Shown: positions 2,261 to 54,945 of the stretch, piece by piece
Layout: each line of letters starts with the position of its first letter
Numbering within the stretch: the stretch's first letter is position 1
NCBI RefSeq assembly: GCF_032884065.1
Contig: NC_088871.1
Coordinates: 13,355,394 to 13,419,393, forward strand
Reading direction: 5' to 3'
Source of the DNA: Artemia franciscana
Taxonomy: Eukaryota; Arthropoda; Branchiopoda; Anostraca; Artemiidae
DNA: 64,000 bases
Made by a program: the position numbers and the translations under genes
The notes under the pieces: model-generated
The model's input: the letters and a program-made list of their open reading frames with translations, nothing else
Database searches by the model: none
What the model was told of the DNA's origin: nothing

Positions 2261-2263
2261 CAC

Positions 2264-3146: not shown

Positions 3147-3156
3147 GCAATACAAA

Positions 3157-17512: not shown

Positions 17513-20500
17513 TCACTCTAAATATAGACTGCCTTGGAAAACAATATCACGCTTTATTTTTGTTGAAGCAGCCTCCATCTTACTTTCGAGTGTTGGATTA
17601 CCAAGTATTTGAGCGGCTTTACGAATATCCTCTAAAGTCTCTACAAGTTGCTGTATCACTCTTACTATCGAGCCTTCCTTTTCATTAGTCAGTTTCATAA
17701 TTTCTATAAATGACTCACCCATCGCCCATCTATAAACCACCTCAACTAGGCCAAATTGAAACTGATCAACATAGTCATTAACTTTTTCTAGTAAACCGAA
17801 GTCTTTTTGAGTTTCACCAATTTCCTTTGCTAACTTTTGAATGCGCTCTACAATTTCCTTTTGAGAAGGAGTAAGGTTTGGCTCCATCTTAGGAGCCATT
17901 TGAGAAGAAGTAAGGTTTGGCTCAATCTTAGGCTTTTGATTGAAAACTAAACATGATAGTAATGCTGCAATATCTTCTTCTGGTAAATCGGTGAAAATAT
18001 TGTGGAATAATAACTCGGTCAGCATTAATTCTTGTTTTCCAATGCTACACGCTACCTGTCCCTTCAGTTGAACTACGTTATCCGAATTAACATACTCGAA
18101 AGATTTCAAAACATTCAATTTTGCAGCATATTCTGCTGAATTACCAAGACGCTCGTCCGAAGTGAGGTAAGCTAACCGTTTGTATTCTTCTCGCTCTTGT
18201 ACAGTGAAATTCCAATGGTCATAAAAAGATGAGCACAAGTAACAATTGAAATCCTCATACTTTGGTTTGATTTTTTGCAAGTCCTGCAATTTCAAAACCA
18301 TGTCGTAATTTTTCTGTTTTAAATGTTCTTCCAAATTAAGAGAACTGAAGTTGGGATCTTTTGACATACTCAATAAGGCATCAATTGCTTTCACAAATTC
18401 AGAACATGGAGAATCTTCCTTCGGTTTTGCGTTCCAGTCATTTAATATGGCCTTGCAATTTACTTTTAGGGTGAAATTGGTAACATCTGCAATGTCTTCT
18501 ACCTTCAAAGATAAAACGTCACCGTCCCGACCATGTGGAACAAAATATGTATGTTTTACAAGGGCTACCATTTTTGGTGTTAGGGCAGATTTCGGTCTGG
18601 TTTTATCTGTTTTTTTCATTGAGTTTTCTCTCTTTGTTTCTCTGCTCCCACGGAGGACTAAAGTCTTAAAAATGGGCTCTTTAGAAAGGTTATTGACATC
18701 TAGAAGAAGACCAACTTTTAAAACACATTCATCGTCGACGACTGTTAAAAAGCGTCCAGGTTTCAATGCCTTAATTACTTGGGGGTGTAAAACAAGCTTA
18801 TACGCTTCAGCTTTTTTTTCTAGATACTTTCTAGCAGCTTCATATAAGCTTTCAACATCTGAGCACATGTTACAGTCAAGTTTTGGGCGGATCTCTAATT
18901 GCTTCATTTCCTTTTCAAATTGTTCGATTTTTGAGCGAAAATGAACCTCACTAAAGCTTAGTTTCATCATGTCTTGAACTTTTAATTGTTTTCCTCTCAG
19001 TAAATTCAATATCATCGAATAAGTCACACGAAACTGCGATTCTAATTTTTGAGGTTTTCCGAGCATCATTTTATGAAGGCTTTCCAATTCCGGCACATTA
19101 TCTTTGCATAATATTAGAACAGTGCCAGTAGAGTCTAAACCTCGTCTTCCAGCACGTCCAGCCATCTGTATATATTCTGAAGGCAGCAATTGTCTTCGAC
19201 CATTGTCGTCGTTTTTCATCATATCGTCAAAAACTACTGAGCGAGCAGGCATATTTACTCCCATTGCGAAAGTCTCAGTTGCAAATAGCAGCTTAACCTT
19301 CCCAGCTTGGAACAGCATTTCAACAATTTCTTTTAAAATTGGCAATTTTCCACTGTGATGGACACCTATTCCTCGGTTCAGCAGACTTGACATTTCAGTA
19401 ACTTGTGGAAGCTTTTTGTCTGAGCCTTTGAGTTTTTTCAGGCATTTTTGCCAGAATCGAGAAATTTCTTCTTTTTCGTCTGCTGTTGTCAAGTCAACAG
19501 AAGCCAATAAGTCTGCATTTTCATCGCATTCATCTCTTGACAAAGTGAAACAAATAACAGGGAGCTTATCTTCGGAACGAAGATGATCGATTACTCGAAT
19601 CCAAAGCTGCTTTCGGCGCTGTGGGCCCCATTTTGGAGTAGGAGTAGTAATAGCTGTGACGTTTTTAACCTTATTGCCTTCTTTTTTATTGCATCTATGA
19701 TCATAATTTCGTCTACCCCCTCCAAGAGCCCCTTTTCCAGTGTCTTTCTGTTGACTATGGAATTTCTCTTTTGGTTTCTTTGCCTCTACAGCATCTAAAT
19801 AGCCTTTACGCAGTAGAGTTCCCTCAGCTCCTAAAATAAGAAATTTGTGCTCCTGTGATTTTCTAGATTGTCCTGTATATAAATAATGCTCCAAAGGTAC
19901 AGGCCTCTTCGGTGTGCTTATAACATAAATCTTTCTTTTCTTCGTCATGCCAACCCATGACGCAAATTCCAAGGTGTTGGGAACAGTGGCACTCAACATG
20001 ATGATTCCCACGTGTTCTGGTAAAAGAATTAAGACTTCTTCGTATACGACACCTCGTTCAGAATCGTTCATGTAATGAACTTCATCAAATATGACCCATT
20101 CTAGGTCTTGAACTGAACTTTGCCCATTATACAGCATGGATCTTAAAATCTCGGTCGTCATTATAACACAACTCGCATTTGGATTGATCTGGACATCTCC
20201 TGTTATAATCCCGACGTCTTCACTAGTACTTCTAAACTCTCTAAATTTCTGGTTGGACAAGGCTTTGATAGGTGAAGTGTAAAATGTCTTCATCTTATGC
20301 TTCCGAGATAAAGCAATAGCATACTCAGCAACTACTGTTTTCCCTGCAGATGTATGTGCAGCGATAAGAACACTTTCACCTTTCTCCAATTTAAGAATAG
20401 CATGTTTCTGAAAGCTGTCAAGCTCAAACTTCCATTTGAATGCAGGGTTTGGAACCATAGTGTCAAAATCAACAGCTTCACTGACATTAACGGTTTCAGC

Positions 20501-20602
20501 CCATAATGTTGGGTTTCGCTTACCTTCAGTCGTTGTCTCCTCGTGTCTTTGCCACTGGTTGCTGAATCTAAGACTGTCAAAAAAAGTGGACTGCATATTC
20601 AT
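17513..20602 (-). CDS. SKIV2L: Ski2-type DExH RNA helicase (SKIV2L/twister homologue), N-terminally short
   Basis: 1029 codons without an intron. It is the helicase of the Ski complex, which feeds RNA to the cytoplasmic exosome. Motifs: Q-like FQKHAI 64-69, Walker A AAHTSAGKT 81-89, DEVH 173-176, SAT 204-206, GVHHSG about 412-417, QMAGRAGRRG 479-488. The C-terminal half holds the arch insertion and a DSHCT domain ending in KRDIVFQGSLYLE. The animal family is about 1200-1250 residues, and here some 200 N-terminal residues (the Ski3/Ski8-binding part) are absent. The reading frame is open for 16 codons above the chosen ATG to a TAA, so translation might instead begin in an unseen upstream exon. 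The ORF contains GAAGGTAAGC near 20522, a donor-like sequence that is read through. A short internal repeat (EPNLTxSQ twice) lies in the C-terminal part. The sequence is otherwise intact, and conserved catalytic residues suggest function or recent origin. Confidence 0.93.
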   Translation of the reverse strand: MNMQSTFFDSLRFSNQWQRHEETTTEGKRNPTLWAETVNVSEAVDFDTMVPNPAFKWKFELDSFQKHAILKLEKGESVLIAAHTSAGKTVVAEYAIALSRKHKMKTFYTSPIKALSNQKFREFRSTSEDVGIITGDVQINPNASCVIMTTEILRSMLYNGQSSVQDLEWVIFDEVHYMNDSERGVVYEEVLILLPEHVGIIMLSATVPNTLEFASWVGMTKKRKIYVISTPKRPVPLEHYLYTGQSRKSQEHKFLILGAEGTLLRKGYLDAVEAKKPKEKFHSQQKDTGKGALGGGRRNYDHRCNKKEGNKVKNVTAITTPTPKWGPQRRKQLWIRVIDHLRSEDKLPVICFTLSRDECDENADLLASVDLTTADEKEEISRFWQKCLKKLKGSDKKLPQVTEMSSLLNRGIGVHHSGKLPILKEIVEMLFQAGKVKLLFATETFAMGVNMPARSVVFDDMMKNDDNGRRQLLPSEYIQMAGRAGRRGLDSTGTVLILCKDNVPELESLHKMMLGKPQKLESQFRVTYSMILNLLRGKQLKVQDMMKLSFSEVHFRSKIEQFEKEMKQLEIRPKLDCNMCSDVESLYEAARKYLEKKAEAYKLVLHPQVIKALKPGRFLTVVDDECVLKVGLLLDVNNLSKEPIFKTLVLRGSRETKRENSMKKTDKTRPKSALTPKMVALVKHTYFVPHGRDGDVLSLKVEDIADVTNFTLKVNCKAILNDWNAKPKEDSPCSEFVKAIDALLSMSKDPNFSSLNLEEHLKQKNYDMVLKLQDLQKIKPKYEDFNCYLCSSFYDHWNFTVQEREEYKRLAYLTSDERLGNSAEYAAKLNVLKSFEYVNSDNVVQLKGQVACSIGKQELMLTELLFHNIFTDLPEEDIAALLSCLVFNQKPKIEPNLTSSQMAPKMEPNLTPSQKEIVERIQKLAKEIGETQKDFGLLEKVNDYVDQFQFGLVEVVYRWAMGESFIEIMKLTNEKEGSIVRVIQQLVETLEDIRKAAQILGNPTLESKMEAASTKIKRDIVFQGSLYLE

Positions 20603-23689: not shown

Positions 23690-24435
23690 ACGGATAAGAC
23701 CCCATCCGTTCTGGTCTTAGGCAAGGAGGAGTCTTATCCCCTTATCTTTTTAATGCTTGTCTTTATTCTGTTTTGCCACGCAAAAATCCATCATGTTTTT
23801 TAGGCCTAACTAATCTTTCGTATATTGCATATGCAGATGATTTACTTTTGATCAGCCGCACTAAATCTAGCCTAATTAAGTCGACACAGCTTGTATCTAA
23901 GTCTTTTGAGGAAATCGGCCTCAAACTTAATGCTGAAAAATGTAAATATTTAGTTTTTAATGCAAAGCATCAAATTAGTGATCTTAGTTGTGGTTATTTT
24001 TCAGTTAAGCTCGTTTCTTCGATTCGGTGGCTTGGTATTAGTATTTGTTCATCTTTATCGGCTTTTCAATCTTGTGGGCTCAATGATATTAAAAGTAAAC
24101 TTAAAAAATGGTACGCGAAGATTGTCCTGAACCGAGGCAGATTTTCACGAAAGGCTTTATCCAGACTTTATTCTACATATTGCGATCATTCTATATTGTT
24201 TCTTTCCGGTTTGCGCCCGTTGTTTAATAATCAAGATTTGCAGGGTATAAGAGTTCTGTATTTTCGTTATTGTAAATATTTATTGTATCTGCCGCGTTCT
24301 TATAGAAATCAGAAGATTATCAGAAAGTTCTGTGCCACTGATATTATTTTTGTTTATAAAAAACTCTATGCTAGATTAGGTGCTGAGGCCTGTCAACGCT
24401 TGGGCCCTTACCACCCTTTGATTAGACTGTATTAA
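23690..24435 (+). pseudogene. CR1/Jockey-like reverse transcriptase, 3' half
   Basis: Plus-strand reading from GLRQGGVLSPYLFN (RT motif B, about 23713) through YIAYADDLLLISRT (catalytic Y-A-D-D box, about 23825), LKLNAEKCKYLVF and SIRWLGI (motif E region) to a stop at 24433-24435. The frame is open from 23698 but is blocked by a TAA just upstream, so motif A and the N-terminal domains are lost. The C-terminal thumb and the basic tail LYARLGAEACQRLGP are intact. The segment from 23773 is the longest open piece. Confidence 0.88.
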
Positions 24436-24946: not shown

Positions 24947-25875
24947 CTAGTCGAGCTCCTCGTCTCCAACAATTTTGTTGTCCCTGTTCAAACAATTGAT
25001 ACTCTGACATTCTTCACACGCGAACGTACACGCTAATCCATTTTCCTTGCAGCTGCATTGCGAATTCTCGCAGTCTATCTTATAGTTGCAATCACGACAC
25101 TCAAAAGAGTCTGAGGTGCGAGCAACAAATCGGTCATCACAGGTGAGTATTTATGGTCTCTGAGGACCCAACTCCAGTTAGCCGGGTCAAGTTCAACTGG
25201 TTCCTCTTTCCAACGGGGTACCTGGAGGTGCACTCGCTGGGATTAGAATGAAGCTGCAGCTTCAGTTGGTGGAAGCCTTTCAGGCTTAACAAGTGCCGTA
25301 GTATTAGACGAAAAAACCTTTTCCAAGAAAATTCGATGTCGCGGCTTAGTGAGATCTTCGTTTGGTCGTATTTTATACAAGCTGAGGAGAGGATATTCAC
25401 CCGCTTTCCCAATTTTATCTTTGGACGATGATTCATCCAGAAACATTTCGCATTTTTTTCTGGGTACTTTGCTCATCTTCAAAAGAGGTAGCACACCCTG
25501 CTTTCCAAGTCCAAAAGCTCGTGAAGTCGTGTCCAAGACTTTAACATCCCAAGAGTGCGTGCCCTACCAGAACCAGCCTGGATACTTCTCCAATTTTTTT
25601 TCCACTTTGTTGAGGCACCAGAACCGTGTTATCTCTTCTTTTGCGTACTTTGACGATTCGAAGTAAAATGTTTTTGCATTAGGCGGGAGGTGATACAAGA
25701 GTAGAATCAAAAGGTCAGTGTTGTTGCTAAGAACTATCGTTTCAAAGTTTTCTGCTTTCTTTACGGCATCGTCCTCCGCATGGACGACTTCAGATCCTTT
25801 GACTCTGGGGTTTTCCCTGATGCTGCTTATAATTCGCTGTTTGTTCTGAAAGTTGCTCAAAAACTCTTTCTTGAC
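24947..25875 (-). pseudogene. PIN/FEN1-like ORF with DTTSR block and Cys-rich tail, 3' copy
   Basis: Minus strand, in order: FLSNFQNKQR, HAEDD and NTDLLILLLYH (25860-25564); TAG at 25564; DTTSRAFGLGKQG and ERLPPTEAAASF (to 25246); TAA at 25243; then in the same frame SQRVHLQVPRWKEEP and NWSWVLRDHKYSPVMTD (to about 25140). After a one-base frame change near 25100 comes a cysteine tail, CNYKIDCENSQCSCKENG and CEECQSINC, ending at TAG 24947-24949. The layout (acidic PIN-like core, DTTSR, LPPT.AA, W-x-W, Cys tail) matches a family I know from invertebrate genomes without a settled function. Two in-frame stops and one frameshift make this a pseudogene. It shows the part missing from the copy at 1-459. 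Confidence 0.6.
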
Positions 25876-26061
25876 AACCTTGCTAGTCTACCTTGCTTCT
25901 CTTACTGAATGTCAAATTAGAACAGGATTATATTGACGAACCCACGCGCTTGTTGAAAACGGCGAGGAATACGGGATAATGTATTTTTTTTTTGGCTTTT
26001 TCGAACCTATGGGGTAGCCGAACCTCTATAGATCTCCTGTATTTGTTATCAAACTTTGTTT

Positions 26062-26505
26062 TTAGATGTCAATTTTATAATCAGCAGATAGAAAAACCCC
26101 AGAAAACACATTCTCACATGCTTTCTACTCCTACCCTATATATTTCTCTTTTTCCCTCCCTCCCCTCATTTCCCCATTTTATGTTAATCGATTTTTTATG
26201 TCATTTTATTTCTCAGTTTCGTAATCACCAAATAGGAATACCCCAGAATCTTCCAAACCGCTTTCCACCCCTACGCTGTATTCTTCTCTTTTCTCCCCTT
26301 TTTTCCCTGTTCCCCTGTCTCCCGTAGTATCCCTTTTCTATACTAAATTTTAGATGTCAATTTCGTAATCAGCGTATGTGATAACCCCAGAAAACTCACT
26401 TTAAACTATTTTCTGGCATGTTCACCATTTTTCCCATTTTCCCCAGTACTCCCCCCTTTTCCCCTATTTTTCGAGTATTCGCCACAGTCAGATTTATGGG
26501 GATTT
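26062..26505. repeat. Three-unit tandem repeat, second copy
   Basis: Counterpart of 645-1090, with TAATCA anchors at 26078, 26222 and 26366, spacing 144 bp. The first unit is 6 bp shorter than in the other copy. Confidence 0.75.
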
Positions 26506-27665
26506 TTAGTATTTTTTAATAAATCTCTTCTGATCGGTTTGGCACCATTTTCGTTTATATTGCAATTTTGTCCGGGTTCGACCCTTTTTTGAGTTAAAAG
26601 TCCTGGAGTAACATGCAGATGCAAGTTCACTTTTGTTTTAAAACAAAAGCTGACAGCTGAGACAGTACAATTGTATATTTCTTTAATTGTATTTATTTTA
26701 TTTATTTGACTTTATTATTTAATGATCAGTTGACATCCGTTTGGTTTTATCAAATTCTTGTTGCATAGCCAATTAGTTACTGCAATTTATAGTTTTATTT
26801 TCGAAATGTTTGAATTGAAAACCCAAGTGCATAAGCTTTAATTATTGTTGAATTGGTTCACGAATCTAGTGTTTTGTTCCTTTCCAACTTAAATGCACAA
26901 AACCAGACATAATTTTTATTTGAACACCTAACAGGTCAATTAACGAAATCACTCCCCGAATTACAGTTGAGGGAAAAGGGTATAACTTCATGCCGAAAAA
27001 AGGAAAAACCTGACATTTTACAGTAGCCAAATCAGAGAAATTTTTTTTTTTTAAACTACTGCCTGCCCATTCGCCAAAATTTTCTCTAATCTTCCTCCTC
27101 CCGCCTTCCTCAAAATGATTTTGAATTCTAAAGATGTCGAAAGGACAATGTCTGTCCTTTCTTCAGAATTTATGGGAATGTGTGTTCAGTTGTTGTTTTT
27201 TTGTTATTTTTTAAAAACAACTGTTTGTTTAACTCTTACTTAATTTTTTTTTTAGCCTTTTTCCTCTTGAGAGAGGCACCCGGACTTGGGGCTGAAATAT
27301 TTTGAATTTTAGATTAAAATTTTGTTTTGTTTGTAATGTTTGGTCACTGCTTCGTTGAAATTAAAACTCGCTTTTCTCGCTTAATTTTTTCAAAGTGGAC
27401 CGATTTGGCTCCGATCCATCCATTTGTATATTCTATTCTAAATGTGATACAGTGCACATGTATGTAAATATGGTGTAAATAGCAGGATTTGTCTGAAAAT
27501 ATTCTTTGAAAACTTAAACCTATGTGACTTTATTAAAGTCACCTAGGGATTGCCTGGTGAAAACAAGGATTTGTCGTCTATACCACTGCAAGTTAAATTT
27601 ACATTTTAACTGAAAAGCTTCAACCTTATAGTACAATTGAATAAAAAAACGAACCAAGTTTTTTT
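26506..27665. other. AT-rich non-coding stretch, second copy
   Basis: Counterpart of 1091-2260. No credible gene; the 73-codon minus ORF at 27520 is a chance reading. Confidence 0.55.
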
Positions 27666-27667
27666 TC

Positions 27668-27835
27668 CACTGAAAGTAAGGTGCAGTATTATAACTTAAA
27701 CGGACAGAAATTATTACGTATATGAGGGCTGTTGTCCCCACCTTAATAACTTGCTCTTTACGCTTAAATTGGACTTTTTGTTCCGATGATTTACGAATGA
27801 GTCCTGAAACACAAGGTGTATTTAATTAAAACACA
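27668..27835 (+). repeat. Foldback-type repeat, left arm plus core, second copy
   Basis: Counterpart of 2264-2430, with AAAGTAAGG ... GACAGAAATTATTACGTATA ... TTGCTCTTTACGC ... CCTGAAACACAAGG. Confidence 0.65.
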
Positions 27836-27907
27836 TTTTTTTTTCTTAGTTAACCAGTCGCACTAGTTTAAAAGTTATTGAGGAAAATTCTTTAATTATT
27901 GTAAATA

Positions 27908-28249
27908 ATGGAAAATCTAAGCGTCTTATTACCAACCTATGAGCAATTAGTTGAAGAAGTATATATAGTGCGAGAATTTCTATCTAAATGGGTACAGGCA
28001 GCAGCTTTTCAGTTACTAAAGGGAGAATGTATAGATGGTATAGAAAAGGGATGTGGTATAATTTTAGTTTTGGGTCCAAGTAAAAGGATTTTGATTGAAG
28101 AGCTTTGCGTGTACTGCAACATGGACCCAAAGGTTCTCCTAAAAAAAATGTGCATTTGGCTAGGCGTAGGGACAACTAGAACATCTGTTAACGCGAAGCA
28201 GGATCGTTGGATAAGGAATAACAAAGGAAGAAAGCAGAGATACAGCTAA
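27908..28249 (+). CDS. Unrecognised small ORF, 3' copy
   Basis: 113 codons from ATG (MENLSVLLPTYEQLVEEVYI...). The C-terminal 93 codons match 2559-2840 apart from three amino-acid changes. No motif recognised; it is moderately charged and ends in a basic KGRKQRYS. A possible exon or domestic fragment inside the duplicated segment. Lack of synonymous differences argues against constraint. Confidence 0.25.
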   Translation: MENLSVLLPTYEQLVEEVYIVREFLSKWVQAAAFQLLKGECIDGIEKGCGIILVLGPSKRILIEELCVYCNMDPKVLLKKMCIWLGVGTTRTSVNAKQDRWIRNNKGRKQRYS

Positions 28250-28398
28250 CCAAAATTCAAAGTGTAACTGTTGTTGCAATTTTAGTATGATAGAAGGAAA
28301 AAGCACTAAAGTAGGTAACTTGAAATTAGATGGAATTGTCGACGAAATGGTTATGGAACAAGTAAGGAAAAGAACATTTGGAACAAGTAAGGAAAAGA

Positions 28399-31300
28399 AA
28401 CTTGCGAATATACAACATTCTTGGCTTTCCCATTGTCTGTGCATATACAAAGCCTTATGTACTTATAAAGACGTCATATGCAAACGCTCTTTTTACAAAC
28501 AAACAAACATGCATACACACAACTCGTTTTTATATAGATAGATAGATAGATAGATACAATACAAATTAATTGCGTAAAACTTGCGAATATACAACATTCT
28601 TCGCTGTCCAATTGTCGCTGCATATAAATAGATTGTCAGGTTTACCGACCCTCGAACATGCAACGTACAATTGTCCATGGGAAAAACAATCAGTATTAAG
28701 ATCTATACCACATTTTTCTAATGATTGACCTTGAGCTTTGTTGATGGTGATTGCAAATGCTAATTGAATTGGGAATTGCAATCTTTTAAATTGAAAAGGC
28801 AGATCCGTTGGAATCATGGGAATGCGAGGAATAAGAACAGCCTCACCCTCAAAAGGCCCTGTCAAGATTGTGGCCTCTATTACGTTTGCCATTGTTTTTT
28901 TTTACGGCAAGTCGCGTGCCATTGCAAAGCTTTGGTGGGTTTATGTTACGTAACAATATTATTGGTACGCCTATTTTTAGTTGTAGCACGTGTGGTGGAA
29001 ACCCTGAAAGATCCACGGAATTTAAAAATTCAGTTGGATAATTAACCGCCTCATTTGGTTCCAAAACTGTGTCGACTGACTTGTAAAGGATTGCCTGGTC
29101 TCGAATCTTGGTCAAAACAATATAGTTGATTTCGTGGAAGTCTATATTTTTTGTGCAAGAATCGCTCCTTCACTTAGCTATTTATTATTTTTATAATTGT
29201 TTAGAATATTCGGAAATACTTTTTCAATCAATTCATTTTTGGACGTCACTAAATTACAGAATTCAGCAGATAGTTGTATACGTCCTGAAATTGAGTCTAC
29301 TGGGAGCTTTCCGTTTCCAATTGCCAGCAATTGATCTGAAAAAGTTTGACCAGAGTCATCGTTTTGCAATCGGACACGCATATTTGTAGTTAATTTTAAT
29401 GTCTTTACGTGTGCCCATAAATTAGAATTTTTCAGGCAAGCATTCATTTCGTCTGCAGGGGTTTATCTAGGTATTATAGGTAATGTTTGCCTGAAATCTC
29501 CCGCAAGCAATATTAATGTGCTGCCAAAGGGTATCGAATTCCCTCACAAATCTTTCAAACATTGGTCCAGAGCCTCGAGCGATTTTTTGTGTGCCATTGT
29601 GCACTCGTCCCAAATAATAAGTTTGCATTGCTGCAATACTTTACCCATCCCAGATTATTTGGAAATATTGCACATTGGAGTTTCTGTAGAATGCAAATTC
29701 AGAGGCGATTCCAAAGCGGAATGAGCAGTCCTTCCACCAGGAAGAAACGTTGCGGCTATTCCGGACGACGCAATTGCCAACGCTATATCATTTTTTGATC
29801 GAATTGATGCCAGTATCAGTTTTATCACAAACGTTTTACCAGTACCTCCTGGCACATCCAAAAAGAAAATTTCTCCAACTTTGTTATCGACACAATGCAT
29901 TATCGTATCATAAATGTCTTTTTCTTCCGACGTTAACTTGGAAATGTTATTTTGTACATACGACAATAGATCACTCGTACTGTAACTTTGTTCACGATCC
30001 AATTCTACACATGTCGAAACAGCAGCAGTACGATTAGGTAAAGGCATTCCCAAATCCTGAAGAGGTTTGTTTGCCATACATACGCACAAATCTTCTATAA
30101 TAACTAAAGTGTAGTTGTAAATTTCTGATGTAAAATCAAAAGTCATATCTGACGTCTCTAACCGTTTTCGATGGAGTATATCTTCGGACATTTTCGATTT
30201 ATATTTTTCCCATAACTCTGTAGGAGCTGAAGGAGAGCAAGTTGTTAGTATGATTCCAAACAATGCACGAATTTGACTTGGAGTTGACGTTTCGCACGCG
30301 TCATTGATGCAGTTATCCCCGTGTTGGTCATTCTCCAATAAATTCAGAGCTTGGCATGCACTACGGTAAGTGTCATGTATAGTACCGTTTACAGTTCTCA
30401 AATACTCAAAGGACGTCGGACCGAGTACATTCACCAAAAGCAGGCGTAGAAAGAAGCATTCATGTTGATTGGGGTGAACGGTGTAGAGTCTTCCTATCGT
30501 GGTTATTTGAAGATGGTTGGTTGGTCGTCGACTGACTTACCCTGTTTTTGACGTTCAAATACTTTATTTTTAGTATTCCACATGTAATACGAAGGCACTT
30601 CAGCATACAGCAGTTTTTTTTGCAAAAGAATCATTTTTACATAGCGAAAAGAAAGCAGTTAACTTTGTATCCGGTGGATTCAGGGCTCTTTGTTGCACGT
30701 CATATTCCGAAAAATAAACATGTTGACCATTCTGTAAATGTACTGATAAGTGAACAACAGCTGGACTACGTTCATGTATCGGAAATGAAAGAATTCACCA
30801 AACAGCTTCATTACTGCTTATGTATCTTCCAGCCTGATATTGTACGATTTTGTCGATATCTTTGATTTCGGACTGCAAGCCAAAAACTGCCATGTCACTG
30901 CCTTTGTTGACGTATTTACATATGTATTTGATTGCCTTTACGGAGTTACAGTATTCAACGTTTATGTGTGCATTAAATGTTTTTGATAATAATGGGGAAT
31001 ATGGAACAACCCACTGGTTATCTACTTCGATGGTGGTACCGTTACGCTTCTTTATTATTGCTGTTTTACCGCCATCTTCAGTAGATCTTCTTCTATATTG
31101 TGGGTAACCATCATTGCCAGTAATTGTGTTGGGTACTAAAAGTCGAGGATATTGCTTTGTGCACCTTCCTTTGGCCATGCATGGTGAATTTTCGTTCAGT
31201 GCACCGCAAGGTCTATGTATCATATTTTTTACAACAATATCATATAACACCTTATCGACATTTTCATCAGGTATTTCAGCGGAAATCAAATCATCAATTT

Positions 31301-32969
31301 CATTCGAAGTAATTTTATAATGTAGCCAGATTAGTATATGTGCGTGTGGCAATCCTCGTTTTTGCCATTCCACTGAGCAAATCCAGCATCGCACTGACCC
31401 AAACACTTCAAGTTTTACTATGTAGTTTATCAGTGATTTCAACTTTTGCTGGAAGACACGGGCCGTAATGTCATGTCTATGAACCGCCGATTGTCCTTGA
31501 AGTAAAAGCTGCTGTATCTCGTCCCAAGATTGATTACATGTAAATGTAATAAATAAATCTGGACGACCATAGAGACGAACATACGCAATAGCATCTTGAG
31601 CATATTCATGCATATGACGGGGACTGCCAGCATATGACGAAGGTAAAATCGTTAATCTTCCAACGTTTGTGGTATTACCGTCATTTACAACTGCATCTCG
31701 CAAATGAATGTATTGTTCAGAGCAGAACTTGGTCTGATTCAGACAGATAAATAGCAAACGTTTTTATTCAATTTTTGCATACATATCAACCATGTATTGG
31801 TGAAACAATTGACGGCATTTTAAAATATAATTGTCTTCATCCTGCCGAATCATTAGTCTATAGGAATAATAATGCATTGCACTGCATTTCTTATTCATTT
31901 CTTTGTTAGTGACTGGATTTATCAATTTAATATTGAAGTGATAGCCGTCGGTTCCATAACAAAATGTTCTCGCCTGAGAATGGTAGAAGGGACCCTGCTC
32001 TATGATAAATTTGCGCTTTTACTTTGAAAGTAGGCATAAATTGATCTGGATTTTCGATTTGGGCACCAAACGACGTCATTTGGAAACATGAGTTATATTT
32101 TCTGATTTTTGATAAAAAGCGCTTAGATTCTGACGTAGTTCCAGTAAGCAAAGTCTTCAATGGCTCTGGGGATGCAGCCAGTTGAGGAAGTTTAACTTTT
32201 CCTGAGGCGCAACATATTCCCATTGTTTCACCATTAAATTTCAAGGCCTTGCAGTAGGGACACATTTTAGACATAGTCCTAGTCCTAATTTGAACACATC
32301 TACTATAATCATCGACTGGGTTGTACCTGAATACCATGCAATAATTTTCACGTTGCTCTTGTGATTCCTCGGCACGCTTTCTTTTGGCATTATCTCTTGA
32401 AGCCGCAAGCCTGTTTTCACGTTGCTCTTGTGATTCCTCGGCACGCCTTCTTTTTTCACTTTTTCTTTTAGCAGCAAGTCTGGTTTTGCGATGCTCTGGT
32501 AGTTCCTCGGCACGCCTTCGTTGACGGAAATTGCACATTCCTAAGCTGGCATTATCTCTTGAAGCCGCAAGCCTGTTTTTATGTTGCTCTTGTGATTCCT
32601 CGGCACGCTTTCTGTTCTTACTTTCTCTATCAGCCGCAAGCCTGTTTTCTTGCTGTTCTTGTGATTCCTCGGCACGCTTTCTTTTCTTACTTTCTCTATC
32701 GGCAGCAAGTTTTTTGGCATAGACTCTTTGAGCAGCTTCCTCGGCTGTTGCCATTGTAGGTTCTTCGGTCATTTTACAATTAAATATTTTTCCGTCCACG
32801 ATCTTCTTACAATTAAAAATTTGTCTTTGAACGAATTTCTTAAATACTTTTAATGACGTCATCGTCATAACAAACATGACGACAACGAACTTCATGACGA
32901 CATGAGGAAATGACGTCACTCGACAGACATAACACACATACAACTTATTTATATATATATATATATAGA
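28399..32969 (-). mobile_element. Helitron copy B, autonomous type, decayed
   Basis: Minus-strand element with 5' end TCTATATATATATATAAATA at 32969, preceded by A. It has the same make-up as copy A: the Rep-helicase gene followed, without hairpin or CTAG, by a second Helitron 5' terminus (about 28555) that breaks off near 28399 at the GGAACAAGTAAGGAAAAG sequence. Shared ends with copy A show that the structure existed before the duplication. Confidence 0.85.
28566..32772 (-). pseudogene. Helitron Rep-helicase, copy B
   Basis: Start MTEEPTMATAEEAAQ at 32772. The N-terminal charged repeats and zinc finger CPYC...CCASGKVKLP are in one open frame to 31927. Relative to copy A about 390 bp are deleted after LLPFSGEN (joint near 31970). 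The Rep domain follows in 31757-30795 with ITFTCNQSWDEI, the HUH site GLPHAHILIW and the Tyr pair KYICKY, and is stopped by TGA where copy A has CGA (NEAVW then Arg). The helicase is in pieces: 30437-29655 with PGGTGKTF, a TAA after CNISK, the region of the IIWDE box (intact here, about 29615), and 28892-28566 with TINKAQGQS. The lesions differ from those in copy A, so the two have decayed separately. Confidence 0.87.
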
Positions 32970-33186
32970 TTATATGTGTTAGATTGCAGTATAATAATTT
33001 CTGAAAGCTGTATGTATAAATTTTTTATAACCAATACAGTAGTATTTAATGTATCAAATAACCTTTATCTTATGGCTACCGCTTCATATGATGTCTTGTA
33101 TAATATTATATGCATTAGATTGCGGTATAATAATTTCTGAAGCTGTATGTATAAGCCTATTAATTTTTAGTTATTTTTATCATATA

Positions 33187-33960
33187 CTAGCTGTTGGTGT
33201 GGCGCTTAGATATATATATGTTTTTAACTACGTAAAACTTGCGAATGTACAATTTTCTTTTCTGTCCCATTGTCTGTGCATATAAATAGATTGTCAGGTT
33301 TACCGACTCTTGAACATGCAACATATAATTGTCCATGGGAAAACAATCCGTATTCAGATCTATACCGCATTTTTCTAATGATTGCCCTTGGGCTTTGTTG
33401 ATGGTAATTGCTAATCGAATATTCTCTGTGTCCCCGTTGTCATTTATATACCCCCAATGTACTCTTCCGGTGTCCCCGTTGTAGTTGTGTCCCTGTGTCC
33501 CGGTCGTCATTTATATTCCCTGTGTCCCGGTCGTCATTTGTGTCCCAGTGTCTCGGTCTGTAATTTCTCTTTGATTGTCCCGGTCGTCATTTATATTCCT
33601 TGTGTCCCGCTTGTCATTTGTGTCCCGGTCTGTAATTTCTCTTTGAGTGTCCCGGTCGTCATTTATATTCCTTGTGTTCCGGTGTCCCGGTCTGTAATAT
33701 ACGACAATAGATCAATTGTGTTGTAACTTTGTTCACGATCCCATTCTACACATGTAGAAATAGAAGCAGTATGATTAGGTGAAGGCATTCTCAAATGCTT
33801 GAGAAGTTTGTTTGCAATAGATAAGCACAAATCTTCAATCATAACTAAAGTGTAGTTATAAATTTCTGTTGTAAAGTCCAAGGTCATATCTGACCTTTCT
33901 AGCCGTATTCGGTGGAGTATATTCTCGGCCACCAGGATGTAAAAGCTGTTGTATCTAATC
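33187..33960 (-). mobile_element. Non-autonomous Helitron with minisatellite, copy B
   Basis: Counterpart of 8131-8921. The minus-strand 3' end CACCAACAGCTAG is at 33187, then TATATGATA. Helicase linker residues (ILHRIRLERSDMTLDF, STCVEWDREQSYNTIDLLSY) lie in 33932-33700. The minisatellite lies in 33700-33420, then TINKAQGQS and the end of the helicase. The 5' end probably lies in the TATC/TA repeat at 33970-34010, where it meets the oppositely oriented element at 34012. Confidence 0.75.
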
Positions 33961-34079
33961 CTAAGATGTATCTATCTATATATATATATATTTATATATA
34001 TATATCTTCGATCTATATAAAAATAAGTTGTCTGTGGATCTGTGGATCTGTGGAGTATAAATGACGACACAGGGAGTAT

Positions 34080-34920
34080 AAATGACGACCAGGACATAAG
34101 TAAAAAAAAGCTAAAAAAACTAAAAAAAGGTAAAAACTACAAAAAAACTAAAAAGAAAAAAAAAAATAAAAACTAATAAAAAAAATTAAAAAAACTAAAA
34201 AAGAAAAAAAATAAAAAAGGGAAAAAAATGAAAAATAAAGGAGAAAAACAAAACTAAAAAAAATAAAAAGAAAAAAAAATAAAAAGAAAAAAGAAAAAAA
34301 ACTAAAAAAACTAAAAAAAAGTAAAAACCAAAAAAAAAATAAAAAGAATAAAAGGGGAAAAATACAAAAATTTAATAAAAAAGCCGAAAAACTAAAAAAA
34401 CTAAAGAAACTAAAAAAAAGGAAAAAAACTTAAAAAACTAAAAACTAAAAAAAAAGAAAAAAAAGGAAAAAACTGAAAAATAGAAGAGAAAAAGAAAACT
34501 AATAAAATTAAGAATAAAAATAAAAAAAAATAAAAAAGATAAAAACTAAAAAAAAAGTAAAAAGAAAAAAACGAAAAAAAACTAAAAAAGCTAAAAAAAA
34601 GAGGTAAAAACCAATAAAAAACTAAAAAGAAAAAAAGGTAAAAAACTAAAAAAAATTTTCATCTAAAAAACTAAAAAAAACTAAAAAAGGTAAAAACTAA
34701 AAGAACTAAAAAAGAAAAAAAACTAAAAAAAGGAAAATAACTGAAAAATAAAGGAGAAAAAGAAAACTAAAAAATATAAATAAAAATAAAAAAACTAAAA
34801 AGATAAAAACTTCAAAAAAAAACTAAAAAGAAAAAAGAAAAAAACTAAAAAACCTAAAAAAAGGTCAAAACCAATAAAAAAAAACTAAAAGGAAAAAAAG
34901 GGAAAAAATTAAAAATTTAT
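34080..34920 (+). repeat. A-rich low-complexity block
   Basis: About 840 bp, nearly all A on the plus strand, punctuated by CT, GG and G in recurring patterns such as CTAAAAAAACTAAAAAAGGT. It probably grew by slippage and duplication inside the Helitron. No coding potential. Confidence 0.9.
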
Positions 34921-34954
34921 TTCATCATATACCAATTCAAAAACGAATGTATAC

Positions 34955-35225
34955 CGGGATGACGACCGGGACACAGGGAATATAAATGACACAACTACAA
35001 CGGGGACGCCGGGGGCACAGGGGGATATAAATGACGACCGGGACACCGGGACACAAGGAATATAAATGACGCCCGGGACGCTCAAAGAGAAATCACAGAC
35101 TGGGACACCGGGACACAAATGACGACCGGGACACAGGGAATATAAATGACGACCGGGACACAGGGACATAAATACAAAGGGGACGCCGGAGTGCACAGGG
35201 GGATATATAAATGACGATGGCGACT
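34955..35225. repeat. GACCGGGACACAGG minisatellite
   Basis: Units of the form GACGACCGGGACACAGGGAA followed by TATAAAT, with variants. Reverse complement of the arrays at 8365-8645 and 33420-33700, as expected from the opposite orientation of this Helitron. Confidence 0.85.
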
Positions 35226-35430
35226 CAGGGAATGGTCGATTAGCAATCACCATCAACAAAGCTCAAGGGCAATCATTAGAATCATGAGGTATAGATCTGA
35301 ATACGGATTGTTTTCCCATGGACCATTATATGTTGCATGTTCAAGAGTCGGTAAACCTGACAATCTATTTATATGCACAGACAATGGGACAGCAAAGAAT
35401 GTTGTATATTCGCAAGTTTTACGTAGTTAA

Positions 35431-35431
35431 A

Positions 35432-35495
<64 letters not shown>
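35431..35495. repeat. TA microsatellite
   Basis: About 60 bp of (TA)n inside the Helitron, ending in TCTATCTATATTCACAGG. The Tyr/Ile-repeat ORFs reported here are readings of this repeat. Confidence 0.95.
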
Positions 35496-35496
<1 letters not shown>

Positions 35497-35617
35497 ATCT
35501 ATATTCACAGGTGGGACATAGGGACACAACTACAATGGCGCTTAACTAATATGGCGCGTAACGACTTACGCGCGCGGGGGGGCTTGAGGGGGGCGGGAAG
35601 CGCCACCCCAACAGCTA

Positions 35618-35618
<1 letters not shown>

Positions 35619-35700
<82 letters not shown>
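35619..35700. repeat. TA microsatellite between two Helitrons
   Basis: About 80 bp of (TA)n fills the space from the CTAG end of one element to the TCTATC start of the next, consistent with insertion into TA-rich target DNA and later expansion. Confidence 0.95.
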
Positions 35701-35703
<3 letters not shown>

Positions 35704-35890
35704 ATCTATATCTATATATATATAAATAAGTTGTCTGTCCGTGTGTCTGTCTGTGGATCAGGTGACGTCATGTTTCTGTGTTGACTGACGTCATGAAATT
35801 AGTTGTCGTCATTTTTGCTTTGACGGTGACGTCATTCAAGATATTTAAGACATATGTTCACGTAGAAATCTATTAATGTTTAAGTTTACA

Positions 35891-36649
35891 ATGACTGATG
35901 AACTTACCATGGCAAAAGCCGATGAAGATGCTCAAAGAGTCTATGCCAAAAAACTTGCTGCTGATAGAGAAAGTCAGAAAAGAAAGCGTGCCGAGGAATC
36001 AAAAGAACAGCAAGGAAACAGGCTTGAGGCTGATAGAGAAAGAAAGAACAGAAAGCGTGCCGAGGAATCAAAAGAACAGCAAGGAAACAGGCTTGAGGCT
36101 GATAGAGAAAGAAAGAACAGAAAGCGTGCCGAGGAATCAAAAGAACAGCAAGGAAACAGGCTTGAGGCTGATAGAGAAAAAAAGAACAGAAAGCGTGCCG
36201 AGGAACTACCAGAGCAACGCGGAAGCAGACTTGCTGCTAAAAGAGAAAGTGAAAAAAGAAGGCGTGCCGAGGAATTACAAGAACAGCAAGAAATCAGGCT
36301 TGCTGCTGATAGAGAAAGTAAGAAAAGAAAGCGTGCCGAGGAATCACAAGTACAGCAAGAAATCAGGCTTGCTGCTGATAGAGAAAGTAAGAAAAGAAAG
36401 CGTGCCGAGGAATCAGAGCAACCTGAAAGTTATCGCCTGGCATTCAGGTACAACCCAGTCGATGATTATAGTTTGAGTAGATGTGTTCAAATCGGGACAA
36501 TGTCTAAAATTTGTCCCTATTGCAAGGCCTTGAAATTCAATGGTGAAACAATGGGAATGTGTTGCGCCTCAGGAAAAGTTAAACTTCCTCTATTGGCTGC
36601 ACCACCAGAGCCATTGAAGACGAATGAATGCTTGCCTGAAAAATTCTAA
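35891..36649 (+). pseudogene. Helitron N-terminal coiled/zinc-finger protein, truncated
   Basis: Open reading from MTDELTMAKADEDAQ. It contains seven or so repeats of about 23-24 residues of the type RESKKRKRAEESQEQQxxRL (highly charged, helix/coiled-coil prone), three of them almost identical (35990-36170). The zinc finger ICPYCKAL...GMCCASGKVKLP (36510-36590) follows. It ends after PPEPLKT by running into the helicase part in another frame (NECLPEKF, stop). The repeat number is larger than in copies A and B. With no Rep domain this cannot act as an endonuclease; a DNA-binding peptide is possible. Confidence 0.7.
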
Positions 36650-37505
36650 TTTATGGGCACACGTAAAAATATTAAAATTAACTACAAATATACGTGTCCG
36701 ATTGCAAAACGATGACTCTGGTCAAACATTTTCAGATCAATTGCTGACAATTGGAAACGGAAAGCTCCCAGTAGACTCAATTTCAGGACGTATACAACTA
36801 CCTGCTGATTTCTGTAATTTAGTGACGTCCAAAAATGAATTGATTGAAAAAGTATTTCCGAATATTCTAAAAAATTATAAAAATAATAAATGGCTAAGTG
36901 AAAGAGCGATTCTCGCACCCAAAAATATAGACGTCCACGAAATCAACAATATTGTTTTCACCAAGATTCGAGACCAGGCAGTCCTTTACAAGTCAGTCGA
37001 CACAGTTTTGGAACCAAATGAAGCGGTTAATTATCCATCTGAATTTTTAAATTCCATAGATCTTTCAGGGTTTCCACCACACGTGCTACAACTAAAAATA
37101 GGCGTACCAATAATACTTTTAAGAAATATAAACCCACCAAAGCTTTGCAATGGCACTCGACTTGCCGTAAAAAAAACAATGGAAAACCTAATAGAGGCCA
37201 CAATCTTGACAGGGCCTTGTGAGGGTGAAGCTGTTCTTATTCCTCGCATTCCCATGATTCCAACGGATCTGCCTTTTCAATTTGAAAGATTGCAATTCCC
37301 AATTCGATTAGCATTTGCAATCACCATTAACAAAGCTCAAGGTCAATCATTAGAAAAATGTGGTATAGATCTTAATACTGATTGTTTTTCCCATGGACAA
37401 TTGTACGTTGCATGTTCGAGGGTCGGTAAACCTGACAATCTATTTATATGCAGCGACAATTGGACAGCGAAGAATGTTGTATATTCGCAAGTTTTACAAA
37501 GTTAA
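36624..37505 (+). pseudogene. Helitron helicase C-terminal half (293 codons)
   Basis: Open from MNACLKNSN. It carries the segments after motif III of the PIF1-like helicase, including TTNIRVRLQND, LTKIRDQAVLY-like sequence, PPHVLQLKIGVPIILLRN, TINKAQGQSLEKCGID and the last motif YVACSRVG, ending VVYSQVLQS. It has no frameshift over nearly 300 codons, unlike copies A and B, so it is a younger or better preserved copy. The ATP-binding motif is absent, so no activity is expected. Confidence 0.85.
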
Positions 37506-37514
37506 TTTGTATTG

Positions 37515-38548
37515 TATCTATCTATCTATCTATCTATATAAAAACGAGTTGTGTGTATGCATGTTTGTTTGTTTGTAAAAAGAGCGTTTGCATATGATGT
37601 CATTATTAGTACATACGGCTTTGTATATGCAGAGACAATGGGAAAGCCAATAATGTTGTATATTCGCAATTTTTACGTAGTTTAACTCCTGCAGACGAAA
37701 TGAATGCTTGCCTAAAAAATTCTAATAGATGGGCACACGTAAAAATATTAAAATTAACTACAAATATGCGTGTCCGATTGCAAAACGATGACTCTGGTCA
37801 AACGGTAGACTCAATTTCAGGACGTATACAACTACCTGCTGATTTCTGTAATTTAGTGACGTCCAAAAATGAATTGATTGAAAAAGTATTTCCGAATATT
37901 CTAAAAAATTATAAAAATAATAAATGGCTAAGTGAAAGAACGATTCTCGCACCCAAAAATATAGACTTCCACGAAATCAACAATATTGTTTTGACCAAGA
38001 TTCGAGACCAGGCAGTCCTTTACAAGTCAGTCGACACAGTTTTGGAACCAAATGAAGCGGTTAATTATCCATCTGAATTTTTAAATTCCATAGATCCTTC
38101 AGGATTTCCACCACACGTGCTACAACTAAAAATAGGCGTACCAATAATACTTTTAAGAAATATCAACCCACCAAAGCTTTGCAATGGCACGCGACTTGCC
38201 GTAAAAAAAACAATGGAAAACCTAATAGAGGCCACAATCTTGACAGGGCCTTATGAGGGTGAGGCTGTTCTTATTCCTCGCATTCCCATGATTCCAACGG
38301 ATCTGCTTTTTCAATTTAAAAGATTGCAATTCCCAATTCGATTAGTATTTGCAATCACCATTAACAAAGCTCAAGGTCAATCATTAGAAAAATGTGGTAT
38401 AGATCTTAATACTGATTGTTTTTCCCATGGACAATTGTACGTTGCATGTTCGAGGGTCGGTAAACCTGACAATGTATTTATATGCAGCGACAATTGGACA
38501 GCGAAGAATGTTGTATATTCGCAAGTTTTACGCAGTTAATTTGTATTG
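37515..38548 (+). mobile_element. Helitron unit: 5' terminus fused to helicase 3' part
   Basis: It begins with TATC repeats and TATATAAAAACGAGTTG (TC at about 37533). It continues for about 150 bp of 5' region (ATGCATGTTTGTTTGTTTG, TTGTATATTCGCAATTTTTA) and then joins at about 37685 to helicase sequence starting AACTCCTGCAGACGAAATG. It ends, like the preceding unit, with the helicase stop and the next TATC/5' terminus (about 38549). The same short 5' piece is attached behind copies A and B. Confidence 0.8.
37700..38539 (+). pseudogene. Helitron helicase C-terminal half (279 codons)
   Basis: Near-duplicate of 36624-37505 with an in-frame loss of about 14 codons after NDDSGQT and scattered substitutions (for example SFHEINN for DVHEINN, PYEGEAV for PCEGEAV). 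It keeps TINKAQGQS and YVACSRVG. Open throughout, but lacks motifs I-III. Confidence 0.85.
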
Positions 38549-38891
38549 TATCTATCTATCTATCTATCTATATAAAAACGAGTTGTGTGGATGCATGTTT
38601 GTTTGTTTGTAAAAAGAGCGTTTGCATATGACGTCATTATTAGTACATACGGCTTTGTATATGCACAGACAATGGGAAAGCCAAGAATGTTGTTTATTCG
38701 CAATTTTTACGTAGTTTGAAACACATATATAAATCTATCTATATTCACAGGTGGGACACAGGGACACAACTACAATGGCGCATAACTAATATGGCGCGTA
38801 ACGACTTACGCGCGCGGGGGGGCTTGGGGGGGCGCGAAGCGCCCCACCAACTAGGTGTTGGGGTGGCGCGAAGTGCCACCCCAACAGCTAG
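38549..38891 (+). mobile_element. Short non-autonomous Helitron
   Basis: From the TATC/TATATAAAAACGAG terminus (TC at about 38567) to ...CCACCCCAACAGCTAG at 38891. It holds the 5' region, a piece ending GTTTATTCGCAATTTTTACG, and the 3' part with the ACGACTTACGCGCG hairpin and a doubled GC-rich block (GGCGCGAAGCGCC and GGCGCGAAGTGCC). No coding sequence. This looks like the minimal end-to-end derivative of the family. Confidence 0.8.
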
Positions 38892-39539
38892 TATATATAT
38901 ATAAATAAGCTTTCTGTGTGTGTGTCGAGTGACGTCATGTTTGTCGACTGACGTCATTATAAGGATTGAGCTGTATGCGTCATGAAGTTGTTTGTCGACT
39001 GACGTCATGTTTGTCAACTGATGAAATTACATACTGGGACACCGGGACACAAATGACGACCGGGACACAGGGAATATAAATGGCGACCGGGAACATCAAA
39101 GAGAAATTACAGACTTGGACACCCGAACACAAATCACGACCGGGACACAGGGAATATAAATGACGACCGGGACCGGGACACAGGGATTGTTCGAATAGAA
39201 ATTACAGACCGGGACACCGGGACACAAATGACGACCGGGACACAGGGAATATAAATGACGACCGGAACACTCAAAGAGAAATTACAAACTGGGACACCAG
39301 GACACAAATGACGACCGGGACACAGGGAATATAAATGCTATTTATATGCACAGACAATGGGACAGCGAAGAATGTTGTATATTCGCATGTTTTGCGTGGT
39401 TAAAAACATGTATATATCTATCTCTATTCACAGGTGGGACACAGGGACACAACTACAATGGCGCGTAACTAATATGGCGCGTAACGACTTACGCGCGCGG
39501 GGGGGCTTGGGGGGCGCAAAGCGCCACCCCAACAGCTAG
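38892..39539 (+). mobile_element. Non-autonomous Helitron with minisatellite
   Basis: It starts in TA repeats followed by AAATAAGCTTTCTGTGTGTG and GTGACGTCATG. It contains the GACCGGGACACAGG minisatellite (39026-39340), a short relic of the helicase end (TTTATATGCACAGACAATGG), and the 3' hairpin and GC-rich end, finishing AACAGCTAG at 39539, followed by TATATGATAG. The same TATATGATA flank follows the 3' ends at 8131 and 33187 (on the minus strand). Confidence 0.8.
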
Positions 39540-53170: not shown

Positions 53171-53342
53171 ACCGCCTCCTACCCATCCAAAAATAGTATT
53201 TTCACCTATACATGGCTTTAGGTAATACTGCAAAATATCTGAAGAGTTCCTCTTTTTCCCCAGGTAGCTGATCTTCAAACGCCATTTCTGACAGGTCATC
53301 TCAGAATCAGAAACAGATTAATCATCATTGAAGCTGTGGGAT

Positions 53343-54945
53343 GGTGCCGTTTTTGTTGAAATAACCAAAAGACTTATGTTCGCTGTTTCATGCTAGATCC
53401 TATCTTAACGATGGGCTTCCACTGACCTGTCCTCTGAGCAGCCTTCTGCACAAAGCTGTAGCAAATCAATTTTCAAGGTCGCCAACTACCCTAAACCCAG
53501 CCCGACCATGAGATACCTGCCCAATAGTTCTTACAATGTTGCAGTAAAATGGTCGCATAAATGTGCGATTCTAGAGTTAAAATGGCAGAGTTCCGTCTTA
53601 AGGTCACTGGCAAACTTCTATTCCACAATATATATTAAAATGTTTTTGCAAAGATTTTAATCCACAATATAAAATTAAAATCTTTTCAGAAAGATACGAT
53701 ACTAATGACCTGGATGAGGTGATCCACAAACTGTCTCCAACTTTTAGGGCTCTTGTGGATCTTTCATTTCTTTATTCTTAAGACAGACAGCAAAGGTAAA
53801 GTTGGTGGAAAAACTCATTATAACATGTTGAAATGCAGGATGACACAGGAAACACGAGCATTGTCTCCTTAAGCATAAATAGTAGAAAAATAAAGAAAAA
53901 CATTTATTTTATAAAGAAATAGAGAAAAAATTTTAGACAGTTAGTTGGTTCAGTTTCGTGTTATCAAATAATGCTTTTCTGATGTCTCGCATAGTATCAA
54001 TTATGTCACACAGCAATATCCTGTCAATTGACAATAATCCTAGGGATTTTCAAAATTAATTCGTCAAGCTCACAGATACGTTACTGTGACATGGTGAAAC
54101 TTGGGATTTGATTGGAACATTAGAGCCCAGAGATTGGATCAAATCGCAAACAAAACTTAGCTTAATTGGGATTTTTTATATCTCTTATTTTGTTTTATAT
54201 ATGCCCTGAGTAAAGCTTGATATAAAATTTTGAGCCGTTGAGAGTTTTGAGAGTTGAGGGGGCGGGAGCCCCTCACATAGAATACTTTCAGTTTATTTTA
54301 AGTTTCAACATTGTTATTTGCTTTCATTTGAAACAATATTTTTTTCTGTATAAGCATGCTTAGAACGAGCATAAATTACTTTCAATTAATGACCAAAAGA
54401 ACCCTAAAATGAAGAAAAATCCAAAAAACAATGAATTCAAATTTAGAACTAGATCTACGTTGCATGGACAACGTGAGCTGTTACGGCAACCTTTGTTCGG
54501 CTTCGCCGAGTAAGTGCTGCGAGAGCAACACTTTGATTTTATTTCCTCACTTCGATTAAATGCTGAAATTGTTAATCTGTAGGGATCTTAAAATAAATAC
54601 TAGGTACACCAACTCCCAAAAGTTGCAAACCCCTCATTGCAACTAGAAAAAGTTGCAAACCCCTCATCGCTGAAGGGGATTGTAGCCTAACAGCCGATTA
54701 TTACTTACAAGTCCCCTACATGTCTTACCTCTGGAACTAAATTGGTCATACCATCAAATACACCGGAAACAAATAATAGGTACACCAACTAGCAAAAGTT
54801 ACGAGCCCCTCATTGCCAAAGATGATTATGAACTAACAGCCGACTGTTGCTTAAAACTCTCCTATATGTGTCACAATTGGTATCGGCCTATTTTTGGTTT
54901 CAGTGTGTACCTTACTACTGAAGTTGTCAACCCCTTTAAACTTAT
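53343..54945 (+). repeat. 1.6-kb tandem duplication, unit 1
   Basis: It starts GGTGCCGTTTTTGTTGA and ends GTCAACCCCTTTAAACTT. Unit 2 follows without spacer. No ORF of note. Inside are a foldback right arm (54243-54340) and short internal repeats of GTACACCAACT...AAAAGTTGCAAACCCCTCAT (54605-54670, 54780-54815). Confidence 0.9.

Follow-up and report, generated by a model that had tools for sequence, protein, structure and literature searches.

Background

Families of Helitrons or Helentrons that are derived by deletion or that lack genes are known from mites, mosquitoes, Drosophila, bats and rice (PMC4067079, PMC4778049, PMC4683698). High-copy non-autonomous relatives of Helraiser, namely HelibatN1-N3, are described in PMC4778049, and change in repeat number within a non-autonomous Helitron is known from PMC4683698. 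Section 15 of PMC4067079 covers Helitron clusters, distant Helitrons that lie adjacent to each other, and tandem arrays attributed to terminator bypass. In this article, we analyze an array of Helitrons in a stretch of 64,000 nucleotides from Artemia franciscana (RefSeq assembly GCF_032884065.1, contig NC_088871.1, positions 13,355,394 to 13,419,393 of the forward strand), which is referred to as the window, and we focus on a non-autonomous element of this array, D, located at positions 35711-38891. A first-pass annotation made from the sequence alone had read the array as a series of deletion derivatives preserved next to their likely source, two Rep-helicase copies designated A and B.

We screened the whole genome (1.27 Gb in 6468 contigs; the window is part of contig C9) and compared D with its dispersed copies and with full-gene relatives. 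The results lead us to conclude with considerable confidence, as far as sequence comparison can show, that the locus is a pile-up of canonical Helitrons from several dispersed subfamilies, where the D family would have been born elsewhere by duplication, deletion, amplification and unit exchange, and where A and B would represent one older insertion.

Results

Structure and ends of element D

The features of D are as follows.

35711-38891, + strand: D, a copy from a dispersed family of non-autonomous Helitrons, with a TC end, N-terminal gene fragment, deletion, two tail units, double hairpin and CTAG
36608-36626, + strand: deletion junction, with AGAC microhomology at 36618-36621
36622-37683, + strand: helicase-tail unit 1, with an internal TCTATATAAAAACGAG stretch
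37684-38717, + strand: helicase-tail unit 2, with the tandem junction at 37677-37689 and a 43-bp gap relative to unit 1
38824-38891, + strand: 3' terminus of D, with a pair of hairpins and a CTAG after each (38851-38854 and 38888-38891), z -6.9

The first-pass annotation had described an element lacking about 3 kb of its middle, and this is what we find: D derives from a Rep-helicase Helitron by internal deletion, retains both ends, and has its deletion junction at 36608-36626. The parental sequence reads GAAGAC|TTT at the left break and GCAGACGAAATG at the right break, and D reads GAAGACGAATG across the junction; AGAC is therefore common to both sides. The deletion measures 3082 bp on AU1, a full-gene relative introduced below. 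The helicase-tail units of the annotation also exist, two in number, 1034 bp apart and 97.5% identical, but they are parts of D rather than separate elements. The 5' end TCTATAT and the 3' end CAACAGCTAG are common to D and the full-gene relatives AU1 and AU2, which gives all three the TC and CTRR termini of Helitrons, and the terminal hairpin of D pairs 38856-38886 and lies 5 nt before the end (z -6.9).

A double hairpin-CTAG 3' end is also present in the dispersed copies L043, L044, L053-L055 and L057 and in AU1 and AU2. The 3' end of L051, like those of the neighboring units F and G, is shortened and has a single hairpin, resembling a collapse between the two hairpins.

Copies of D across the genome

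The 27-base deletion junction of D occurs in 424 exact copies genome-wide, compared to 0 for the reversed control. Across 201 bp spanning the deletion, identity was ~100% at all 40 scored sites, the one in the window among them, drawn from 680 first-look candidates. At 20 fetched loci the longest match of the N-terminal stretch was 97.1-99.6% identical to D; scored by eye, 16 of the 20 have the TCTATAT 5' end and 17 have the CAACAGCTAG 3' end, the rest being truncated or running into (TA)n. The dispersed copies span from TC to the CTAG equivalent of 38891 with the tail units inside, and a separate small element "S" (38571-38891, from its TCTATATAAAAACGAG start) was rejected because these copies place that stretch inside D. 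The flanks of seven D loci are mutually unrelated, save for a 113-bp stretch common to the left flanks of L039 and L057. As to insertion between A and T without target-site duplication, which is typical of canonical Helitrons, A precedes TC and T follows CTAG in L055 and L057, and G precedes TC at two direct CTAG|TC joints (L043 and L053).

D is thus one copy of a dispersed non-autonomous Helitron family that in all likelihood arose elsewhere. The proposal that the locus itself preserves the deletion series did not hold, both on account of the 424 junction copies and because the window rows do not cluster in a helicase-tail tree of 52 rows, seven of them from the window: these seven show 5 label changes compared to a shuffled mean of 6.2, and 87 of 500 shuffles gave values as low.

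Full-gene relatives

A search with the Rep protein yielded 88 scored matches from 14160 first-look candidates, 87 of which (all but A itself) are 87-91% identical to A; the same protein searched in viral contigs gave 5 pattern matches and no relative. Six of the 88 matches lie in frames of 1443-1663 aa, and two of these six were read, namely AU1 (L059 and L060; 5727 bp) and AU2 (L061; 5746 bp), each extending from TC to CTAG and carrying a 1548-aa frame. The Pfam domains of the AU1 protein (PF14214, PF05970 and Pif1_2B) identify it as a fusion of Rep (HUH) and PIF1-like helicase, and no endonuclease was found in this frame in the Pfam scan at E <= 0.001. Residues 76-1528 of AU1 align with residues 13-1464 of Helraiser (E 2.5e-263), and the HAHIL of AU1 is aligned to the HAHIL of Helraiser, for which H593 and H595 are named in PMC4778049.

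A third full-gene copy, L062, keeps the region deleted in D and is the nearest to D among those read. Like AU1 and AU2, it is located on a chromosome other than that of D. All three are closer to D than A and B, which were therefore not upheld as the likely source of D. In the 193-base N-terminal stretch, identity to D is 99.5% for AU1 and AU2, 99.0% for L062, 93.0% for A and 92.0% for B; in the helicase tail the values are 97.3% (AU1), 97.2% (AU2), 98.0% (L062), 95.6% (A) and 95.8% (B). The 3' ends of AU1 and AU2 are each 98.8% identical to that of D, and A and B have no such end. In the 5' non-coding region, identity to D is 96.4% for L062, 75.0% for AU1, 73.7% for AU2, 67.7% for A and 67.8% for B.

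Two observations had hinted that D might be a mosaic with a foreign 5' end: identity of D to A and B is 80% at the 5' end and 95-96% in the tail, and dS (synonymous divergence) is 0.06-0.08 in the tail and 0.167, based on six changes, in the N-terminal part. This possibility was rejected. A and AU1 are also 77.5% identical at the 5' end and 93.6% over the gene, i.e., the 5' region diverges faster there too, and since L062 matches D at 96.4% in that region, no mosaic is needed.

Order of events and exchange of tail units

The 28-base tandem junction occurs in 2341 exact copies genome-wide (reversed control 0), 5.5 times as many as the deletion junction. On contig C1, two of four Rep matches have a tandem junction ~2.1-2.2 kb downstream and two have none among the matches listed. 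L062, one of the former, has the exact tandem junction, and its second unit is 98.9% identical to that of D until homology ends. Because L062 is undeleted, the 1034-bp tail duplication preceded the 3082-bp deletion. Moreover, unit 2 of D starts AACTCCTGCAGACGAAATG, exactly as AU does, including bases gone from unit 1, so that the deleted unit 1 did not serve as its template. The reverse order, deletion before duplication, is ruled out by the start of unit 2, the 2341 tandem junctions and the structure of L062.

The number of tail units varies. In a census of 30 loci (L009-L038, the window's own included, with some close pairs), seven have a single unit followed by the 3' end, one (L014) has a cut single unit, 21 have two or more units, some of them cut, and one (L035) is rearranged; a larger fetch of one census site, L057, revealed three units. 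Twelve markers tell first units (17 typed) and second units (12 typed) apart. By these markers, unit 1 of L062 is type 1 at 11 of 11 readable positions and unit 2 is type 2 at 7 of 7, including the 43-bp gap; its last five markers lie beyond the end of homology and are unreadable. The single unit of L042 is a clear mosaic, with five type-1 markers and then mostly type 2, and the middle unit of L057 is reciprocal to it, type 2 and then type 1. L042 and L057 match what out-of-register exchange would be predicted to produce, and both crossing-over and template switching could account for them.

Copies A and B as a single insertion, probably an older one

The two Rep-helicase copies lie in a duplicated block.

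1-8918, no strand: first copy of the block, containing A and E2A along with non-Helitron flank of at least 2.9 kb, by self-BLAST; its right end abuts an assembly gap
25417-33975, no strand: second copy of the block (B, E2B), by self-BLAST
2989-7944, - strand: copy A, Rep-helicase Helitron with its 5' TC end at ~7944 and its gene broken into several frames
28398-32969, - strand: copy B, same insertion as A, gene broken

Self-BLAST matches 1-8918 to 25417-33975 with 96.2% and 93.3% identity over two long matches. Because the matching block takes in ~2.9 kb of non-Helitron flank, A and B represent one insertion rather than two. The copies of this ~8.9-kb block are 92-99.8% identical per 500-base chunk, and they may represent either a real duplication or two haplotypes placed in succession by the assembly. 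The block of A stops at the assembly gap, a run of N at 8922-8980, so a false duplication of the latter kind is possible.

That A and B are Rep-helicase copies is confirmed: PF14214 (Helitron_like_N) and PIF1 were matched in pieces of both, and the Rep piece of A matches Helraiser (7lcc, E 2e-100). Neither contains an open gene, the coding region being split over several frames, and B lacks ~380 bp present in A (6555-6932). We sought a hairpin-CTAG 3' end (CAGCTAG type) for A and B and found none; their homology to D ends at 2989 and 28398, respectively. Consequently, neither is complete in the sense of having both ends and an open gene. Between the helicase tails of A and B, dN (nonsynonymous divergence) is 0.029 and dS is 0.026, and such near equality is what sequence free of selection shows. 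We regard A and B as a single broken insertion of greater age that was copied together with its flanks.

Neighboring units E2, F and G

The remaining units of the array are as follows.

8131-8918: E2A, counterpart of E2B in the first block
33187-33975, - strand: E2B, truncated at its 5' end, from a different dispersed Helitron family with multiple deletions; CTAG without hairpin
34012-35618, + strand: F, non-autonomous Helitron with TCTATATAAAAATAAG 5' end, A-rich tract, 27-bp minisatellite, helicase tail, hairpin and CTAG
38892-39539, + strand: G, unit without a gene, containing a minisatellite, a 70-bp remnant of the helicase tail, a hairpin (z -3.5) and CTAG

In the helicase-tail tree the only starred branch (100/100) splits E2 and F from A, B and D, and 28 of 35 inner branches are open. 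The helicase tail of F, 192 bp long, belongs to the E2 clade. The first-pass annotation had named ends and interiors from unrelated families as grounds against its series; such a mixture is found between units (E2 and F versus A, B and D) and not within D.

Its statement that all units share termini and a 3' hairpin is correct in part. F, D and G each have a hairpin-side CTAG 3' end, at 35618, 38891 and 39539, respectively, and these ends are mutually 93-95% alike, although the hairpin of F is weak (z -2.0; 8 of 200 shuffles equally good). On the other hand, A and B lack this end, and E2B, the only E2 copy folded, has no hairpin (z 0.02), its CTAG being present at 33187 as it is at 8131 in E2A. 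The 5' ends of A, B or D are matched over about the first 20 bases in F, in G and in the terminus-like stretch inside the tail unit, but identity over the whole 5' stretch is only 51-62%. The 5' TC of G was not seen.

The E2-type elements L005, L006 and L008 each consist of six separate Rep-helicase gene pieces with the intervening stretches gone; L003, L004 and L007 show fewer gene pieces in the fetched stretch, and E2-type elements are thus dispersed. Within F, an A-rich, loosely periodic tract of ~815 bp (34101-34915) resembles TAAAAAAAA.

Other features of the window

Outside the Helitrons, positions 53341-56540 contain a direct 1.6-kb tandem duplication with 98.5% identity. An uninterrupted 1029-aa frame at 17513-20602 has DEAD, Helicase_C and DSHCT domains, and we take it to be an MTR4/SKI2-like RNA helicase. 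A reverse-transcriptase fragment (RVT_1) is located at 23773-24435.

Discussion

We propose that subfamilies of Helraiser-type Helitrons landed beside or within each other's AT-rich ends, and that the D family would have formed elsewhere in four steps: 1) the last 1034 bp of a full-gene ancestor, comprising the helicase tail and a short internal terminus-like stretch, would have been tandemly duplicated, the structure seen in L062; 2) a 3082-bp deletion at the AGAC microhomology, which we infer as the mechanism from the observed junction, would have taken the Rep domain and most of the helicase; 3) the TC 5' end and hairpin-CTAG 3' end would have been kept while the element spread to at least 424 copies, presumably mobilized in trans by intact Rep-helicase elements such as AU1 and AU2; and 4) out-of-register exchange between tail units would have generated copies with one and three units, of which L042 and L057 exhibit the mosaics. 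On this reading, the gene-less copy goes back to full-length elements at other sites in the genome rather than to the damaged copies beside it.

Several observations weigh against this reading. In global alignment, the identity of the 5' non-coding region of D is as low as 75.0% to AU1 and 73.7% to AU2 (88% over 143 bp by BLAST), and the corresponding region of the D copy L057 is no nearer to them (68.6% and 67.4%) than to A and B (67.9% and 66.9%), so AU1 and AU2 are partners or cousins of D, not parents. The gene of L062 is undeleted but frameshifted (frames of 913 and 515 aa) and its homology to D stops short of any 3' terminus; L062 therefore exhibits the structure before the deletion and is not a working parent. 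The shortened second unit of AU1 and AU2 has unit-2 states at the five markers 427-640 and is A/B-like at the last six. Besides L042, the other six of the seven single units differ from unit 2 solely at the 43-bp gap (one marker is unreadable in L046), and these could either have arisen by exchange or belong to a tail lineage that predates the gap, there being no further informative site between the gap and the next marker. Finally, the 20 fetched D loci are top matches that include some close pairs and are not a random sample, and besides A and B the full-gene copies fetched were three.

The main rival concerns the array rather than D, and it is possible though clearly the less probable account: D and G, perhaps F, D and G, on the + strand arrived as one multi-element product of rolling-circle read-through in which the 3' terminator was bypassed. 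Tandem arrays attributed to such a bypass are known from bats and Bombyx (PMC4067079, section 15), G-like 5' sequence follows directly after the CTAG of D at 3 of 20 loci (L042, L054 and L049, at the last of these over its first 41 bp), and direct CTAG|TC joints, with G preceding TC, occur at L043 and L053. However, (TA)n separates F and D in the window, no Helitron-like start follows the CTAG of D at L047, L055, L057 and L058, and the same adjacency would arise if D had inserted into the AT-rich 5' end of a G already in place. Several D copies sit in (TA)n or right beside the CTAG of another Helitron, and at L041 G-like sequence lies ~114 bp from D. We prefer serial insertion in AT-rich Helitron ends as the account of the array.

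It is rather unlikely, but conceivable, that the tail module with its internal terminus-like stretch is active and gives extra options for replication and termination in rolling-circle transposition, the one-, two- and three-unit forms then being made by strand or template switching. If true, the family would preserve a natural record of slippage in the intermediate of Helitron transposition.

A one-step origin of D, in which the 3-kb deletion and the tail duplication are joint products of a replication fork with two template switches, would suit the left breakpoints of the AGAC deletion and the tandem junction, which are ~16 bp apart; it is most improbable given that the tandem junction occurs without the deletion (2341 versus 424 exact copies) and that L062 combines the full gene with both units, which largely refutes it unless L062 regained the gene by recombination. 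Least credible of all is the local series, in which D, the tail units, F and G were made from A and B by successive deletion in place: Rep-helicase ancestry is common to the units, and D lies on the same side of the 100/100 branch as A and B with 95.6-95.8% identity in the tail, but the D junction is found in 424 genomic copies, L062, AU1 and AU2 are closer to D, E2 and F lie across that branch, and no 3' end of A and B was found.

With serial insertion and an origin of D elsewhere as the preferred reading, a tempting interpretation is corrected, since full-size and gene-less Helitrons side by side do not prove descent. The path from autonomous to non-autonomous Helitron that the annotation saw is real, but it is genome-wide, of a known kind, and read from dispersed copies in the order of tail duplication, gene deletion, amplification and unit exchange. 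Such an ordered path, together with an undeleted example of an earlier stage, allows the origin of a non-autonomous Helitron family to be dated.

Comparison with known systems

Helraiser/Helibat1 of Myotis (PMC4778049, PDB 7lcc) resembles the AU elements in its RepHel protein, aligned over almost its full length, its TC and CTAG ends and its 3' hairpin. The hairpin of Helraiser lies 11 nt before the 3' end (PMC4778049), compared to 5 nt in D, and both are hairpins near the end. Unlike Helraiser, D ends in two hairpin-CTAG motifs in succession, and the helicase tail in its gene remnant is duplicated in tandem. HINE/DINE-1 elements (PMC4067079) are, like D, high-copy gene-less deletion derivatives of a dispersed autonomous partner, with tandem repeats in some copies. 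Helentrons carry a fused endonuclease (PMC4067079), whereas AU1 shows none in Pfam and has canonical Helitron ends. In comparison with DHH_Mothra of rice (PMC4683698), the repeat unit of D is a 1-kb gene piece from the helicase end, and exchange between the units is traced by markers. Cg_HINE of oyster (PMC7492417) is similar to D in that both are non-autonomous rolling-circle elements that bear and spread tandem repeats; the central repeats of Cg_HINE are satellite-like and occur in Helentrons, whereas the units of D are derived from the gene and are carried by a canonical Helitron.

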